From: Ignatzschineria larvae DSM 13226
Lineage (GTDB): Bacteria; Pseudomonadota; Gammaproteobacteria; Cardiobacteriales; Wohlfahrtiimonadaceae
Direction of reading: 5' to 3'
Assembly (NCBI RefSeq): GCF_038500265.1
Contig: NZ_CP150637.1
Location: 191,001 to 255,000 of the forward strand
DNA: 64,000 bases
Within the stretch, counting starts at the first letter, position 1; every line of letters begins with the position of its first letter. Below, in pieces: positions 4,456 to 51,774 of the stretch. The position numbers and the translations under genes are program-made. Below the pieces are notes generated by a model. The model saw only the letters and a list, made by a program, of their open reading frames with translations. It had not been told where the DNA came from and ran no database searches.

Positions 4456-4989
4456 ATGAATCGAAGACATTTTATACAGCTCGGTGGAGGTCTCTTTACC
4501 TCTTTAGTGATGCCCCTTAGCTTCATACAGGCACAATCCTTTGCAACCCCGGTGAGTGCGGAGAATGTAACACTTTTTTTGCAAGTATCTGAATTTATTA
4601 CAGATAAGTCTGATCTGAAATTGATTTTAGCGCAGAGGGCATTGAGTAATTTATGGATAGATGATTCAGAGTTTATGGATAAATTACGGGAGTTACATGC
4701 CACGATCTCTCAGAGCGGTTTCCCTAATGCAACAACATTTTCTAAGAGTCTTTTGATGCAAAATCCCCAGATTGCCGATACTGTTAAAAAGATCACTAAA
4801 GCATGGTATTTAGGATATACCGGGGATCAATTGCCATATACAGTATCCGACGATGTTCGTTTTGTCACCTATACGGATGCATTGATGTATCGACCAACAT
4901 TAGATGTAACGATTATTCCTTCATTTTCACGGGAAAAGCCCAATTATTGGTTTAATCCTCCAGTACATTTAATGAATCAACATTCATAA
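4456..4989 (+). CDS. Small subunit of a periplasmic FAD sugar/polyol dehydrogenase (Tat signal)
   Basis: The 177-residue protein starts with a twin-arginine signal peptide (NRRHFIQLGGG, then a hydrophobic stretch to about residue 27). It resembles the small subunit of three-subunit membrane dehydrogenases such as gluconate 2-dehydrogenase subunit 3 and sorbitol dehydrogenase SldS. In those complexes it chaperones the flavoprotein and carries it through the Tat system. It lies 10 bases before the GMC flavoprotein gene and 1.6 kb before a cytochrome c gene, the standard order. The WYLGYTGDQLPYTVSDDVRF segment near residues 115-135 fits the family. The substrate cannot be read from this subunit. 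Confidence 0.8.
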   Translation: MNRRHFIQLGGGLFTSLVMPLSFIQAQSFATPVSAENVTLFLQVSEFITDKSDLKLILAQRALSNLWIDDSEFMDKLRELHATISQSGFPNATTFSKSLLMQNPQIADTVKKITKAWYLGYTGDQLPYTVSDDVRFVTYTDALMYRPTLDVTIIPSFSREKPNYWFNPPVHLMNQHS

Positions 4990-47770: not shown

Positions 47771-48085
47771 TTAAGCGCTAATGCCAGTGATTTTAATTTC
47801 TGTAAAATGCTGGCGATGACCTGCATGATGGCGATAGTGCTTACGACGACGGAATTTAATAATGTCGATTTTACGAGTACGACCTTGTTTTTTAACTTCC
47901 GCAGTTACTTTAGCACCGGCTACCACAGGAGTACCGACAGTTAAGTTACCATTTGCACTTACAAGAAGAACATCATTTAATTCGATGTTTGAGCCTTCTT
48001 CTGCGCCTTCGATTTTTTCAATACGGAGGATTTGACCTTCCGCAACGCGATATTGTTTACCGCCCGTTCTAATTACTGCATACAT
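47771..48085 (-). CDS. rplU: Large ribosomal subunit protein L21
   Basis: 50S protein that binds 23S rRNA. The 104 residues (E. coli 103) include [48 protein letters not shown] (the signature, about 71-98) and [11 protein letters not shown]. It is the first gene of rplU-rpmA. A good sigma-70 promoter lies about 100 bases upstream. Confidence 0.97.
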
Positions 48086-48482
48086 AATTGCTGAATGCTC
48101 CGCATAAATTAATTTACATAAAATATTCGATCAAACCAGCCATTTGAGAGGGGACTACAAAACGGTCGGGTTTAAGAGGGGTAATATTACTGCTTAACTA
48201 AAAAATAGTCAAGCAATCCCTAGGGACTTTTCTAGGAATAACACAACTCTATGATCAATCTAGCTCGGGATTATCCCACGCTTTAATATAACAATCAATC
48301 AGTCATTTTAAATATTTTCAAATAATTTAAATACATTTTGAATCCCTCAAATTTTATCTATCTACTACCCTTTAATTATGAGCATATGAAGGGTATTTAT
48401 GGATGCAGGGTATTTGCAAATGTAGAGTAAAAGATTGGAGAGAAGTATTGATTTAATCAAATTAGATAGAGTAAGTGGATTA
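48086..48482. other. Intergenic region between rplU and the pilin-like cassette
   Basis: About 400 noncoding bases between divergent units. It contains the rplU promoter (48184-48212), a TCCCTAGGGA palindrome near 48217, and TACCCTT/AAGGGTA (48366-48372 with 48389-48395), an inverted repeat about 90 bases before the first pilin-like start. Confidence 0.5.
48184..48212 (-). promoter_or_regulatory. Sigma-70 promoter of rplU-rpmA
   Basis: On the minus strand TTGACT (48207-48212) and TAATAT (48184-48189) are separated by exactly 17 bases. The transcript would start about 85-90 bases before the rplU start codon. Confidence 0.75.
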
Positions 48483-48722
48483 ATGATGGAACAAGAAAGT
48501 AGCGGGAAGTTAGATGTTGCTGAACATGATCTTCAATATAAACAGAAAGGTAGCAAGCAGGAAGGTGAACGAGGGGCTATTTTGCTGGAAGTTGTCATCG
48601 CTTCGCTATTTCTTTTGCTGGTGATGAGCATGGGTAATCGTTTATTAGGGTTTTATCATCTTAATTACCAGAAGCTCTTCATCACTCATCAAGTATTGAT
48701 GCAGAAACAAAATGAGCGATAA
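48483..48722 (+). CDS. Small prepilin-like protein (PilV-like), putative
   Basis: Protein of 79 residues from ATG 48483; the frame opens upstream at a TTG (48435). A charged leader of about 31 residues ends GERG. It is followed by AILLEVVIASLFLLLVMSMG, which is a type IV prepilin N-terminus with Glu at mature position 5. The part after the helix is only about 25 residues, far shorter than normal PilV, so it may be a stub or serve only as an anchor or initiator. The next gene starts inside its end. Function as a minor pilin is inferred from the N-terminus and neighbours. Confidence 0.6.
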   Translation: MMEQESSGKLDVAEHDLQYKQKGSKQEGERGAILLEVVIASLFLLLVMSMGNRLLGFYHLNYQKLFITHQVLMQKQNER

Positions 48723-49671
48723 ACAGATAACAGGCATGAAGAATTCGTATCGGAGTAGAGAGTCGGGGCAGAGCTTACTCTCAATGCTTGTCGGATTGGC
48801 GCTGTTCGCGATTATTCTTTTAATGGTATCGATGATTACTCGCAGTTGGATGATGCAGACCCTATTACTTAAACAAGAGGTTGAATTATTGGATTCGCTA
48901 GTGGCGACAGAGGATCTTCTACGTAAGGAATTTGAAACTCTGTTATTTGCTCCATATTGCCCATCTTTACTGCCTTCTTATTCGTCGATGATGCTTGGGG
49001 TGAGCGTTGATAAACAATATCGTAATCTTTTACAACAAAGCCTTTTAATATCTTCACCAATGCCTGCTCATAAAGTGAAGGTGCTTAATTTGCATAAATT
49101 ACAAGGTCGGGGAAGTGGGCAATATTCTCCTGAGCCAATGAAGAAGTTGCAACGTTTAGTGGAGGGGAGTGAGCTTTTTTATCTCATTGGTCTTAAAGAG
49201 ACCGGTCTATCTATGCAAGGCACAAAAATTCAAGGAGATATGCCCGCTTCGCTCATCGGAATACGAGGAGCTTATTTTTATTTGACGGATTGTCGTAGCA
49301 GTATGTTGTTGTCGGCCAATCGTAAAGATGAGGGGTTTGAATTATCGGCTGTTGATTTAGAGTTGATTACTCAATTGTTTGATCAGAAAAAGTTGCAGAT
49401 TTATGTAATGCAAGAATATCTCGTATATCTACAAATTCGGGATCAGGAGAGCTTTTTGGTCATAGATTATATGGATGGTCAGGCTTTTTATCGAGCGCCT
49501 TATATTGTGGATATGAATCTGCAATTACAAAATGGTGTATTGACGGTTTTATTGGTGTCCGGCCTTACAAGAAGGGCGCCGGCTAAAAATATTGTAGAAG
49601 ATTTTTATGGGCGAACTATTGAAAATGGTTGGAATATCAATGTTTGGCCTATTGAGATTTCCTTGGAATAG
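48712..49671 (+). CDS. PilW-like minor pilin, putative
   Basis: Protein of 319 residues that overlaps the previous gene by 11 bases (ATG 48712; an in-frame ATG at 48736 is possible). The leader ends RESG, followed by QSLLSMLVGLALFAIILLM, a prepilin-type helix. The fifth residue is Ser where Glu is normal. The body has a PilW-like segment, YFYLTDCRSSMLLSANRKDEG (about 183-203), and a late FYRAPYIVDMNLQL. PilW-type proteins start pilus or competence-pseudopilus assembly. Nothing else of the pilus machinery lies in the window. Low similarity makes the family call tentative. Confidence 0.6.
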   Translation: MSDKQITGMKNSYRSRESGQSLLSMLVGLALFAIILLMVSMITRSWMMQTLLLKQEVELLDSLVATEDLLRKEFETLLFAPYCPSLLPSYSSMMLGVSVDKQYRNLLQQSLLISSPMPAHKVKVLNLHKLQGRGSGQYSPEPMKKLQRLVEGSELFYLIGLKETGLSMQGTKIQGDMPASLIGIRGAYFYLTDCRSSMLLSANRKDEGFELSAVDLELITQLFDQKKLQIYVMQEYLVYLQIRDQESFLVIDYMDGQAFYRAPYIVDMNLQLQNGVLTVLLVSGLTRRAPAKNIVEDFYGRTIENGWNINVWPIEISLE

Positions 49672-49760
49672 ATTGAATGATAGAAATTGTATTGTAGAGA
49701 TTATTCAATTGCTTATAGTGCCGATTGTAGTAATGACTGAAAAAGTGAAGTAAGTGTAAG

Positions 49761-50927
49761 ATGAGAACGATGCAACAGCGAGAATCAGGTTCTATTTTTG
49801 TCGGCGTTATTATAATAGTAGGGCTATTTTTTCTATTCTTTTGGGGCATGCAACAGATGCTCTCTCAGGAGTGGTTTTTATTACGTAAAAAATCTGCTTG
49901 GGTTGAGAAATTGCATGTTTCAAAATCTTTTGTTCGAAAGCCGAATCAATTTTCAATTACCAAAAAAGAGGCTCATCAAGTCGAGAAGTGTGACCTGTAT
50001 CGGCAGAAAATCCTAATTAGGAATCGTCAGTCAGAGGGGAATCATTCTTTAAATATATCTGATTGTTATAATGACCCCTTTTATAAGTTAAATGTTGATT
50101 TCTATCTAGATGCCGTATCTCCTGATCAAAATATCTCTTATGCGCACTATTATTATGAGGTCAATAATGACAGTAAGGCCTTAGAGAATGCTGTTTTAGT
50201 TGAGTTTGTGAGGGTTGAAGAAGATTTGGTATCGGTTGTTATTCTTCATGAGAACCAGCAATATGATTACCAGTTGCCTCTATTTGATGATCAAGAACGG
50301 ATACAGTATCAGTTAGTGAAAGGTATCGATAGTGGAGTGGCGATAATTGTAAATCGCACGCTTTGGTTTTTGTCGTTTACAGGGGAGGTGAAGCTTGTTG
50401 CGCGAGACTTACCTTTTAAATTTGAATCAATACTGTTATCTGCTTTAATTCCTGTTAAGAAGGGGCTCGATAATGATAGTGAAAAAAATGCGTTATATTT
50501 CAATAGAACCTATTTGAATAAAGTCTATTTTTTAGTGCGTCCAACAAAAGCAGAATTGAGATTATACTTGATAGATGCTGCCGGTATTGGAGGAGAGATA
50601 AAAAGATGGAATCTTGATAATGAACGAGATTTTGATGAGGGATATGGAGTGTTGGAGAAAAGGATTCGTTTAAGTTTAGATCGTTGGAGCGTGGAGTGGT
50701 TAGATCAGGCGGGAATAATACTCTTATTCAAGAGTCTTGATCAGGAATATGACCGACTATTTGCAATAGATTGGGGAGGCAGTCCGTTATGGGGAGATCG
50801 AGCTTTTTGGGTTCGTCAGGTAGATAACGGTGTTTATTGTGGTTTGCAGCAAATATTGTTTGAGCCTGTGCCGGGATGGATTCTAGGATGTCAGCGATTA
50901 CGAGAAGGTAAAATAGTGATAGAGTAG
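49761..50927 (+). CDS. Prepilin-like exported protein with large C-terminal domain, unknown
   Basis: I do not recognise this 388-residue protein. The start RESGSIFVGVIIIVGLFFLFF resembles a PilX-type prepilin, cut after Gly and without Glu5. It keeps the same RESG leader as the gene before it. The C-terminal part (about 100-388) is rich in beta-strand-like repeats such as LWFLSFTGEVKLVAR, LYLIDAAGIGGEIKRWN and LFAIDWGGSPLWGDR. These weakly recall propeller blades of pilus-tip proteins. Cysteines at about 75, 97 and two near the C-terminus could form disulfides. It follows the PilW-like gene by 89 bases, and fdhD starts 61 bases later. Confidence 0.5.
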   Translation: MRTMQQRESGSIFVGVIIIVGLFFLFFWGMQQMLSQEWFLLRKKSAWVEKLHVSKSFVRKPNQFSITKKEAHQVEKCDLYRQKILIRNRQSEGNHSLNISDCYNDPFYKLNVDFYLDAVSPDQNISYAHYYYEVNNDSKALENAVLVEFVRVEEDLVSVVILHENQQYDYQLPLFDDQERIQYQLVKGIDSGVAIIVNRTLWFLSFTGEVKLVARDLPFKFESILLSALIPVKKGLDNDSEKNALYFNRTYLNKVYFLVRPTKAELRLYLIDAAGIGGEIKRWNLDNERDFDEGYGVLEKRIRLSLDRWSVEWLDQAGIILLFKSLDQEYDRLFAIDWGGSPLWGDRAFWVRQVDNGVYCGLQQILFEPVPGWILGCQRLREGKIVIE

Positions 50928-50988: not shown

Positions 50989-51774
50989 ATGACAAAAGAT
51001 AAAACAGCTTTTTTTGAAACAGTCAATGTTCAGCGTTATCGCGCTGGAGAATGGCGGATGGTGAAAGATGACGTGTTAATAGAACGTCCAGTATCGCTTA
51101 TTTATAATGGTATGCCGCATGTTGTCATTATGTGTACGCCGCAAGACTTAATAGATTTTATCTATGGGTTTTCTCTAACTGAAGGTATTGTTATGAGTCG
51201 AGATGATATTCGCTCTATCGATATTCATCCTAAGCCATTAGGCGTTGAAGCGCGCGTTGAGGTTACCCCTCTCTGTATGTTCCGTATTGAGGGACGAAAG
51301 CGACAGATGAGTGCACGAACAGGGTGCGGTATTTGCGGTTTAGATACATTGACTGATGTGGTGAGAGAACAAAAGCCTATTGATTTCGATTTTAAAATAA
51401 ATGAGGTTGCGATTGATAAAGCGTTGGGTGATGCTACGGATGCGCAGATTATGAATCAAAAGACGGGTGGGGCGCATGCAGCTTTCTTTGTCGCAAGTGA
51501 TGGTGTAATTATGTTAATGCGAGAAGATGTCGGTCGGCATGTGGCACTCGATAAGCTGATAGGTGGGATGATACAGCAGAATATAGATCCTAAAAGTGGT
51601 TTTATCTTGACCACTTCTCGGGCAAGCTTTGAGATGATACAGAAAGCTGTTGCTGCGCGGGTGGGGTTATTGGTAACAATGTCAGCACCCACTTCTATGG
51701 CGATTGATCTAGCGCATGAAATGAATTTGAAACTTGCCGCTTTTAGTCGAGTCGGTAAAATTAATCTTTATTAA
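50989..51774 (+). CDS. fdhD: Formate dehydrogenase accessory sulfurtransferase FdhD
   Basis: Passes sulfur from IscS to the molybdenum cofactor of formate dehydrogenase. The 261 residues have the key ARTGCGICG motif with Cys113 and Cys116. Also present are TGGAHAAFFVASDGVIMLMREDVGRHVALDKLIG and the C-terminal SRASFEMIQKAVAARVGLLVTMSAPTSMAIDLA. A formate dehydrogenase is expected elsewhere in the genome. ATG is preceded by AAAGGTGGG. It lies directly before the str operon promoter. Confidence 0.94.
   Translation: MTKDKTAFFETVNVQRYRAGEWRMVKDDVLIERPVSLIYNGMPHVVIMCTPQDLIDFIYGFSLTEGIVMSRDDIRSIDIHPKPLGVEARVEVTPLCMFRIEGRKRQMSARTGCGICGLDTLTDVVREQKPIDFDFKINEVAIDKALGDATDAQIMNQKTGGAHAAFFVASDGVIMLMREDVGRHVALDKLIGGMIQQNIDPKSGFILTTSRASFEMIQKAVAARVGLLVTMSAPTSMAIDLAHEMNLKLAAFSRVGKINLY

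Follow-up and report, generated by a model that had tools for sequence, protein, structure and literature searches.

Three consecutive genes of an Ignatzschineria chromosome encode prepilin-like proteins that are probably core minor pilins of the I, J and K types. They would form the tip of the sole type IV pilus or competence-type machine encoded in the genome. The window analyzed was a stretch of 64,000 nucleotides (C1:191001-255000) of the single-contig 2.56-Mb chromosome (C1); among named species, Ignatzschineria ureiclastica is closest to it (87% identity in gene 2). The first-pass annotation had placed the trio at 48483-50927, and the reading of the open reading frames (ORFs) showed this to be correct (Table 1). 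Genes 1 and 2 overlap by 11 bp. The ATG of gene 1 at 48483 yields a protein of 79 aa, and an alternative in-frame TTG at 48435 would yield 95 aa. A literature search found no paper combining Ignatzschineria with type IV pili.

Table 1. Positions of the trio, its neighbors and related features. Plain numbers refer to the window.
Feature	Position	Strand	Basis or remarks
Gene 1, candidate headless I-type minor prepilin, 79 aa	48483..48722	+	Prepilin-end scan; 15 genomes with similarly shaped homologues
Gene 1 leader, 31 aa	48483-48575	+	Mature part of 48 aa, begins AILLEVV with Glu5
Gene 2, candidate J-type minor prepilin, 319 aa	48712..49671	+	N_methyl (six-frame search), family alignment
Gene 2, Ser codon of mature position 5	48781-48783	+	Leader to Gly19
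Gene 3, candidate K-type minor prepilin, 388 aa	49761..50927	+	Scan, alignments, model
Gene 3, Gly codon of mature position 5	49803-49805	+	Leader to Gly10
rplU, left neighbor, divergent	47771..48085	-	Same neighbor in relatives
fdhD, right neighbor, then rpsL-rpsG-fusA	50989..51774	+	Conserved trio context in relatives
Leaderless gene 1, 49-aa pilin helix	L026:5179-5328; L028:5005-5154
Leaderless gene 1, 49-aa pilin helix	L029, oriented 4531-4680	-
PilD	L086:9550-10335 (C1:734549-735334)
PilB-type ATPase	L101:6278-8506 (C1:716277-718505)
139-aa neighbor of the PilA-like pilin	L086:19171-19590 (C1:744170-744589)
GspG-type major pseudopilin	L088:8606-9067 (C1:2353605-2354066)

Prepilin ends, synteny and selection

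Prepilin ends were scanned for mechanically, as a Gly within the first 60 residues with K or R just upstream, followed by a hydrophobic 20-residue stretch that was uncharged except at position 5 and had a mean hydropathy above 1.9. Exactly 3 of the 142 window ORFs of at least 60 aa matched, and these were the consecutive genes 1, 2 and 3, which indicates that the prepilin ends are not there by chance. The cut sites read GERG/AILLE (gene 1), RESG/QSLLS (gene 2) and RESG/SIFVG (gene 3), placing Glu, Ser and Gly, respectively, at mature position 5. Both the run of three prepilin-type leaders and the restriction of Glu5 to the first gene, as originally described, were borne out. Each protein has the Gly cut site and hydrophobic helix of a type IV prepilin, and the genome encodes one prepilin peptidase, PilD, an enzyme on whose presence the original description depended. 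Only gene 2 passed the cut-off of the Pfam N_methyl model (21.2 bits), and only in a six-frame search (23.2 bits), but scored 19.7 bits in hmmscan; no library model matched gene 1 or gene 3 at a meaningful score. Promoters and terminators did not stand out above shuffled sequences, and an Rfam search gave no matches.

Seven other Ignatzschineria genomes have relatives of genes 2 and 3, located ahead of fdhD-rpsL-rpsG-fusA. G007 lacks an fdhD ORF between gene 3 and rpsL, and the place of the trio is otherwise the same. The same three genes occupy the same place in two sister genera, g2 (probably Wohlfahrtiimonas) and g4, and the cassette is thus kept in position across three genera of the family. 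No match was found in G008, an assembly of 230 contigs. A profile built on the head of gene 2 had no match in the order outside the family, and among 370 sampled genomes of the class it matched the window's own genome alone. Comparison with G006 gave dN/dS values of 0.07 for gene 1 (47 codons), 0.09 for gene 2 and 0.24 for gene 3, with fdhD (0.04) as the yardstick. These low values indicate purifying selection on all three genes.

Minor-pilin types and head domains

The I-, J- and K-type assignments were made because of gene order, size and the residue at position 5. In HIJK sets, K alone lacks Glu5, is often larger and is encoded last (PMC5207764), and the K subunit caps the tip (PMC10191384, PMC10790768). 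The trio resembles these sets (GspHIJK, PilHIJK, FimU-PilVWX and ComGD-GE-GF-GG) in its prepilin-type ends, its small I, its J and its large last K without Glu5, and the Ignatzschineria genome also has an H-like pilin, although it is encoded elsewhere. The first-pass annotation had treated the missing Glu5 of gene 3 as an oddity, but its absence is regular in K subunits (PMC5207764, PMC10191384) and belongs to the published K signature (PMC5207764, PMC10790768), so that gene 3 is unremarkable here; its position 5 is never Glu in any relative. The real anomaly of the trio is the Ser5 of gene 2, where relatives keep Glu.

Several features count against the I-J-K assignment. Gene 1 is headless, whereas I subunits normally have a head. 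J subunits keep Glu5 in HIJK sets, whereas the J of the trio lacks it (Ser in the window, Gln in g4); in the g2 relatives, genes 1 and 2 both begin with a textbook prepilin end that includes Glu5. Finally, no likeness to PilW, PilX, GspJ or GspK was detectable in the head domains of gene 2 and gene 3. Comparison with PilW and PilX profiles of the same order aligned the N-terminal helix alone. The earlier description of a PilW-like segment in the second gene is therefore not supported, as the label has nothing behind it other than the common pilin helix.

Searches of Pfam, NCBIfam and PDB sequences with members of the family returned N-terminal or chance matches alone, and no known family or solved structure matched the head of gene 2 or gene 3. 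These genes would thus add two tip heads without a match to known sequence families. Single-sequence AlphaFold2 models reached pLDDT values of 39.7 and 41.0, with the helix alone confident. The poor model of gene 3 (39.7) has many strands after the helix, where the first-pass annotation had described blade-like repeats that would recall a beta-propeller; its top Foldseek match, a WD40 domain (E 0.046, probability 0.15, TM 0.12), is meaningless at this pLDDT.

The cysteines of the heads were compared across relatives. In gene 2, Ignatzschineria and g2 have both C83 and C194 (TDC motif), whereas g4 has neither. This joint retention or loss suggests a disulfide, and from the alignment Cys83 and Cys194 are probably bonded. 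The four cysteines of gene 3 (Cys77, Cys102, Cys360 and Cys377) all align in Ignatzschineria and g2. C77, C360 and C377 do so in nearly every relative; C102 is out of line in g4 only, where the protein has four cysteines too, at a different spacing.

The pilus machine of the genome and the function of the trio

The first-pass annotation had the trio standing alone, with no other pilus genes. This is true locally but not genome-wide, as the remaining pilus machine is encoded elsewhere: one each of PilC/GspF, PilD, a PilB-type ATPase, a PilT-type ATPase and PilQ, together with ComEC, a PilA-like pilin, a GspG-like protein and, near scpA and trpS, a FimT/GspH-like pilin with Glu5. The pilQ, pilD and comEC genes to which the same annotation had pointed are thus all present, PilQ and ComEC being the parts expected for DNA uptake. 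PilQ comprises 478 aa with the Pfam domains Secretin_N and Secretin only, and the alignment of PilC begins at model position 59. An N_methyl search of the genome found no second I/J/K set. In g4, an ordinary minor-pilin set (pilE, fimU, pilV, pilW and pilX type) exists besides the trio; the trio is therefore an additional set in that genus, and Ignatzschineria seems to have kept only the trio.

Two known arrangements are close to that of the trio. The FimU-PilVWX-PilY1 sets of the same order share its I, J, K order and a K without Glu5. However, their heads could not be aligned with those of the trio, and PilY1 (PF05567), the partner in a PilVWX-PilY1 priming complex, is absent from 9/9 Ignatzschineria genomes and present in the ten other genera sampled. 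Like the trio, comNOPQ of Haemophilus influenzae (ppdA-ppdB-ygdB-ppdC of Escherichia coli) is isolated from other pilus genes, but it adjoins recC rather than fdhD and includes an H-type member, and no sequence relation to the trio was found beyond the helix.

In the processing, assembly order and tip location that we infer for the trio, the single PilD peptidase would cleave the three prepilins, and the gene 3 product, a large K without Glu5, would cap the tip. The gene 1 product (I, a bare helix) would lie beneath it, with its Glu5 facing the N terminus of K, and the gene 2 product (J) would come next below, with Ser at the position serving gene 1. The separate FimT/GspH-like pilin (H) would join this complex to the PilA-like filament, the assembly of which the complex would prime. 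As PilY1 is absent, the exposed tip would consist of the heads of J and K.

The trio had been described as a reduced minor-pilin or DNA-uptake tip complex. A tip complex remains the best fit (gene order, sizes, K-type residue 5, synteny, and a single machine with ComEC), but DNA uptake is possible as a candidate function only. Uptake is favored among the functions because the isolated comNOPQ operon of H. influenzae is required for DNA uptake and transformation (PMC12616744) and because ComEC is present; adhesion and secretion would be compatible with the data as well.

Secretion is central to another reading, one that we consider unlikely, in which the trio forms the I-J-K tip of a secretion pseudopilus: the same single machine would carry out secretion of a type II-like kind, and the GspG-like protein encoded beside aroA would be its major pseudopilin. 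This protein scores above its NCBIfam cut-off (92.1 versus 88.85 bits). We take Dichelobacter nodosus to belong to the same order as Ignatzschineria. Its type IV fimbrial system also takes part in protease secretion (PMC3480457). The classical example of a large K subunit lacking Glu5 is GspK (PMC5207764). However, the sole secretin is of the PilQ type (331 bits, cut-off 284) and falls far short as the GspD secretin of a type II secretion pseudopilus (185 bits, cut-off 351), a PilT-type retraction ATPase is present, and the trio heads have no similarity to GspI, GspJ or GspK.

Other proteins of the machine were also inspected. The PilB-type ATPase has 742 aa, and its alignment to the PilB model starts at residue 318, which leaves a long extra N-terminal part with a weak MshEN match only. 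The PilA-like pilin is adjoined by a 139-aa protein kept in seven Ignatzschineria genomes; it has an N-terminal membrane helix and a PilA-like C-terminal cysteine pair, lacks a leader, cut site and Glu5, and matched a PilA profile with a probability of 74% over 123 columns. The GspG-type protein adjoining aroA is a lone major pseudopilin in a genome without a GspD secretin.

Residue 5 of gene 2 and the reduction of gene 1

Among the gene 2 proteins, those of g2, G003 and G007 have Glu at position 5, those of the window, G006, G002, G004 and G005 have Ser, and g4 has Gln. If Glu is ancestral, the Gln of g4 and the Ser of Ignatzschineria indicate that Glu5 was lost at least twice; the tree node that decides between one and two Ser origins in Ignatzschineria has a support of 0.11. 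In gene 1, position 5 is Glu everywhere except in g4 (Ser). The first-pass view of gene 1 as almost only a helix held in all genomes where it could be read (15/15). Truncated Geobacter pilins and their relatives (PilA-N) are likewise reduced to little beyond the helix (PMC5174107), but PilA-N is the major subunit of a filament, whereas the trio would be a set of minor pilins at its tip.

In G002, G004 and G005, the leader region of gene 1 has no in-frame start codon, and the stops TAA TAG occupy mature positions 1 and 2 in G002 and G005. All three genomes have a 49-codon frame with an ATG at mature position 3, preceded in G004 by a plausible ribosome site (GGAGGAAGAGTA-ATG). Between G002 and G004, 27.6 of 32.2 synonymous sites and 30.4 of 114.8 nonsynonymous sites differ, and the length is equal. 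The excess of synonymous differences at the same length indicates that the short form is maintained by selection. Its product is presumably made and inserted, and an I subunit made without a leader would be made without the prepilin peptidase. In G015 (g2), the Gly preceding the cut site is replaced and an ATG lies at mature position 1, possibly a second loss of the leader. A literature search on leaderless pilins found nothing relevant. The leaderless species (3/3) all have Ser5 in gene 2; this co-occurrence would fit an altered I-J contact but is a correlation across very few lineages.

A decaying minor-pilin operon, left over in a genus that is losing its pili, is a very improbable reading of the trio, since the losses of Glu5 in gene 2, of the head of gene 1 and of its leader in some species, the missing PilY1 and the trimmed PilQ, PilC and PilD have to be set against intact frames in 15 genomes (dN/dS, 0.07 to 0.31), conserved cysteines in genes 2 and 3, and a leaderless gene 1 that keeps its exact 49 aa across the synonymous divergence given above.

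Judged from the sequences, the subunits of the probable I-J-K tip have progressively lost a head domain, Glu5 and, in some species, the leader peptide. It is conceivable, although we lean against it, that this tip has escaped the prepilin rules, with a headless I that is leaderless in some species, a J that docks without Glu5 and a PilD without its N-terminal domain. If true, a working priming complex could be built without Glu5 in J and without cleavage of a leader from I; the roles of Glu5, the head domain and leader cleavage in starting a type IV filament are still debated. The close species represent a natural variant series (Glu5 or Ser5 in J, I with or without a leader, PilD with or without its N-terminal domain), and the family would show the extent to which a minor-pilin tip can be pared down and still be kept by selection.

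The N-terminal domain in question, A24_N_bact (PF06750), is missing from PilD in 4/4 Ignatzschineria proteins scanned and is present in g2 and g4, where PilD has this domain and the peptidase domain. With such a PilD, Ignatzschineria pilins may lack N-methylation. The peptidase domain itself, including its two Asp motifs, is retained in the PilD of the window's genome.
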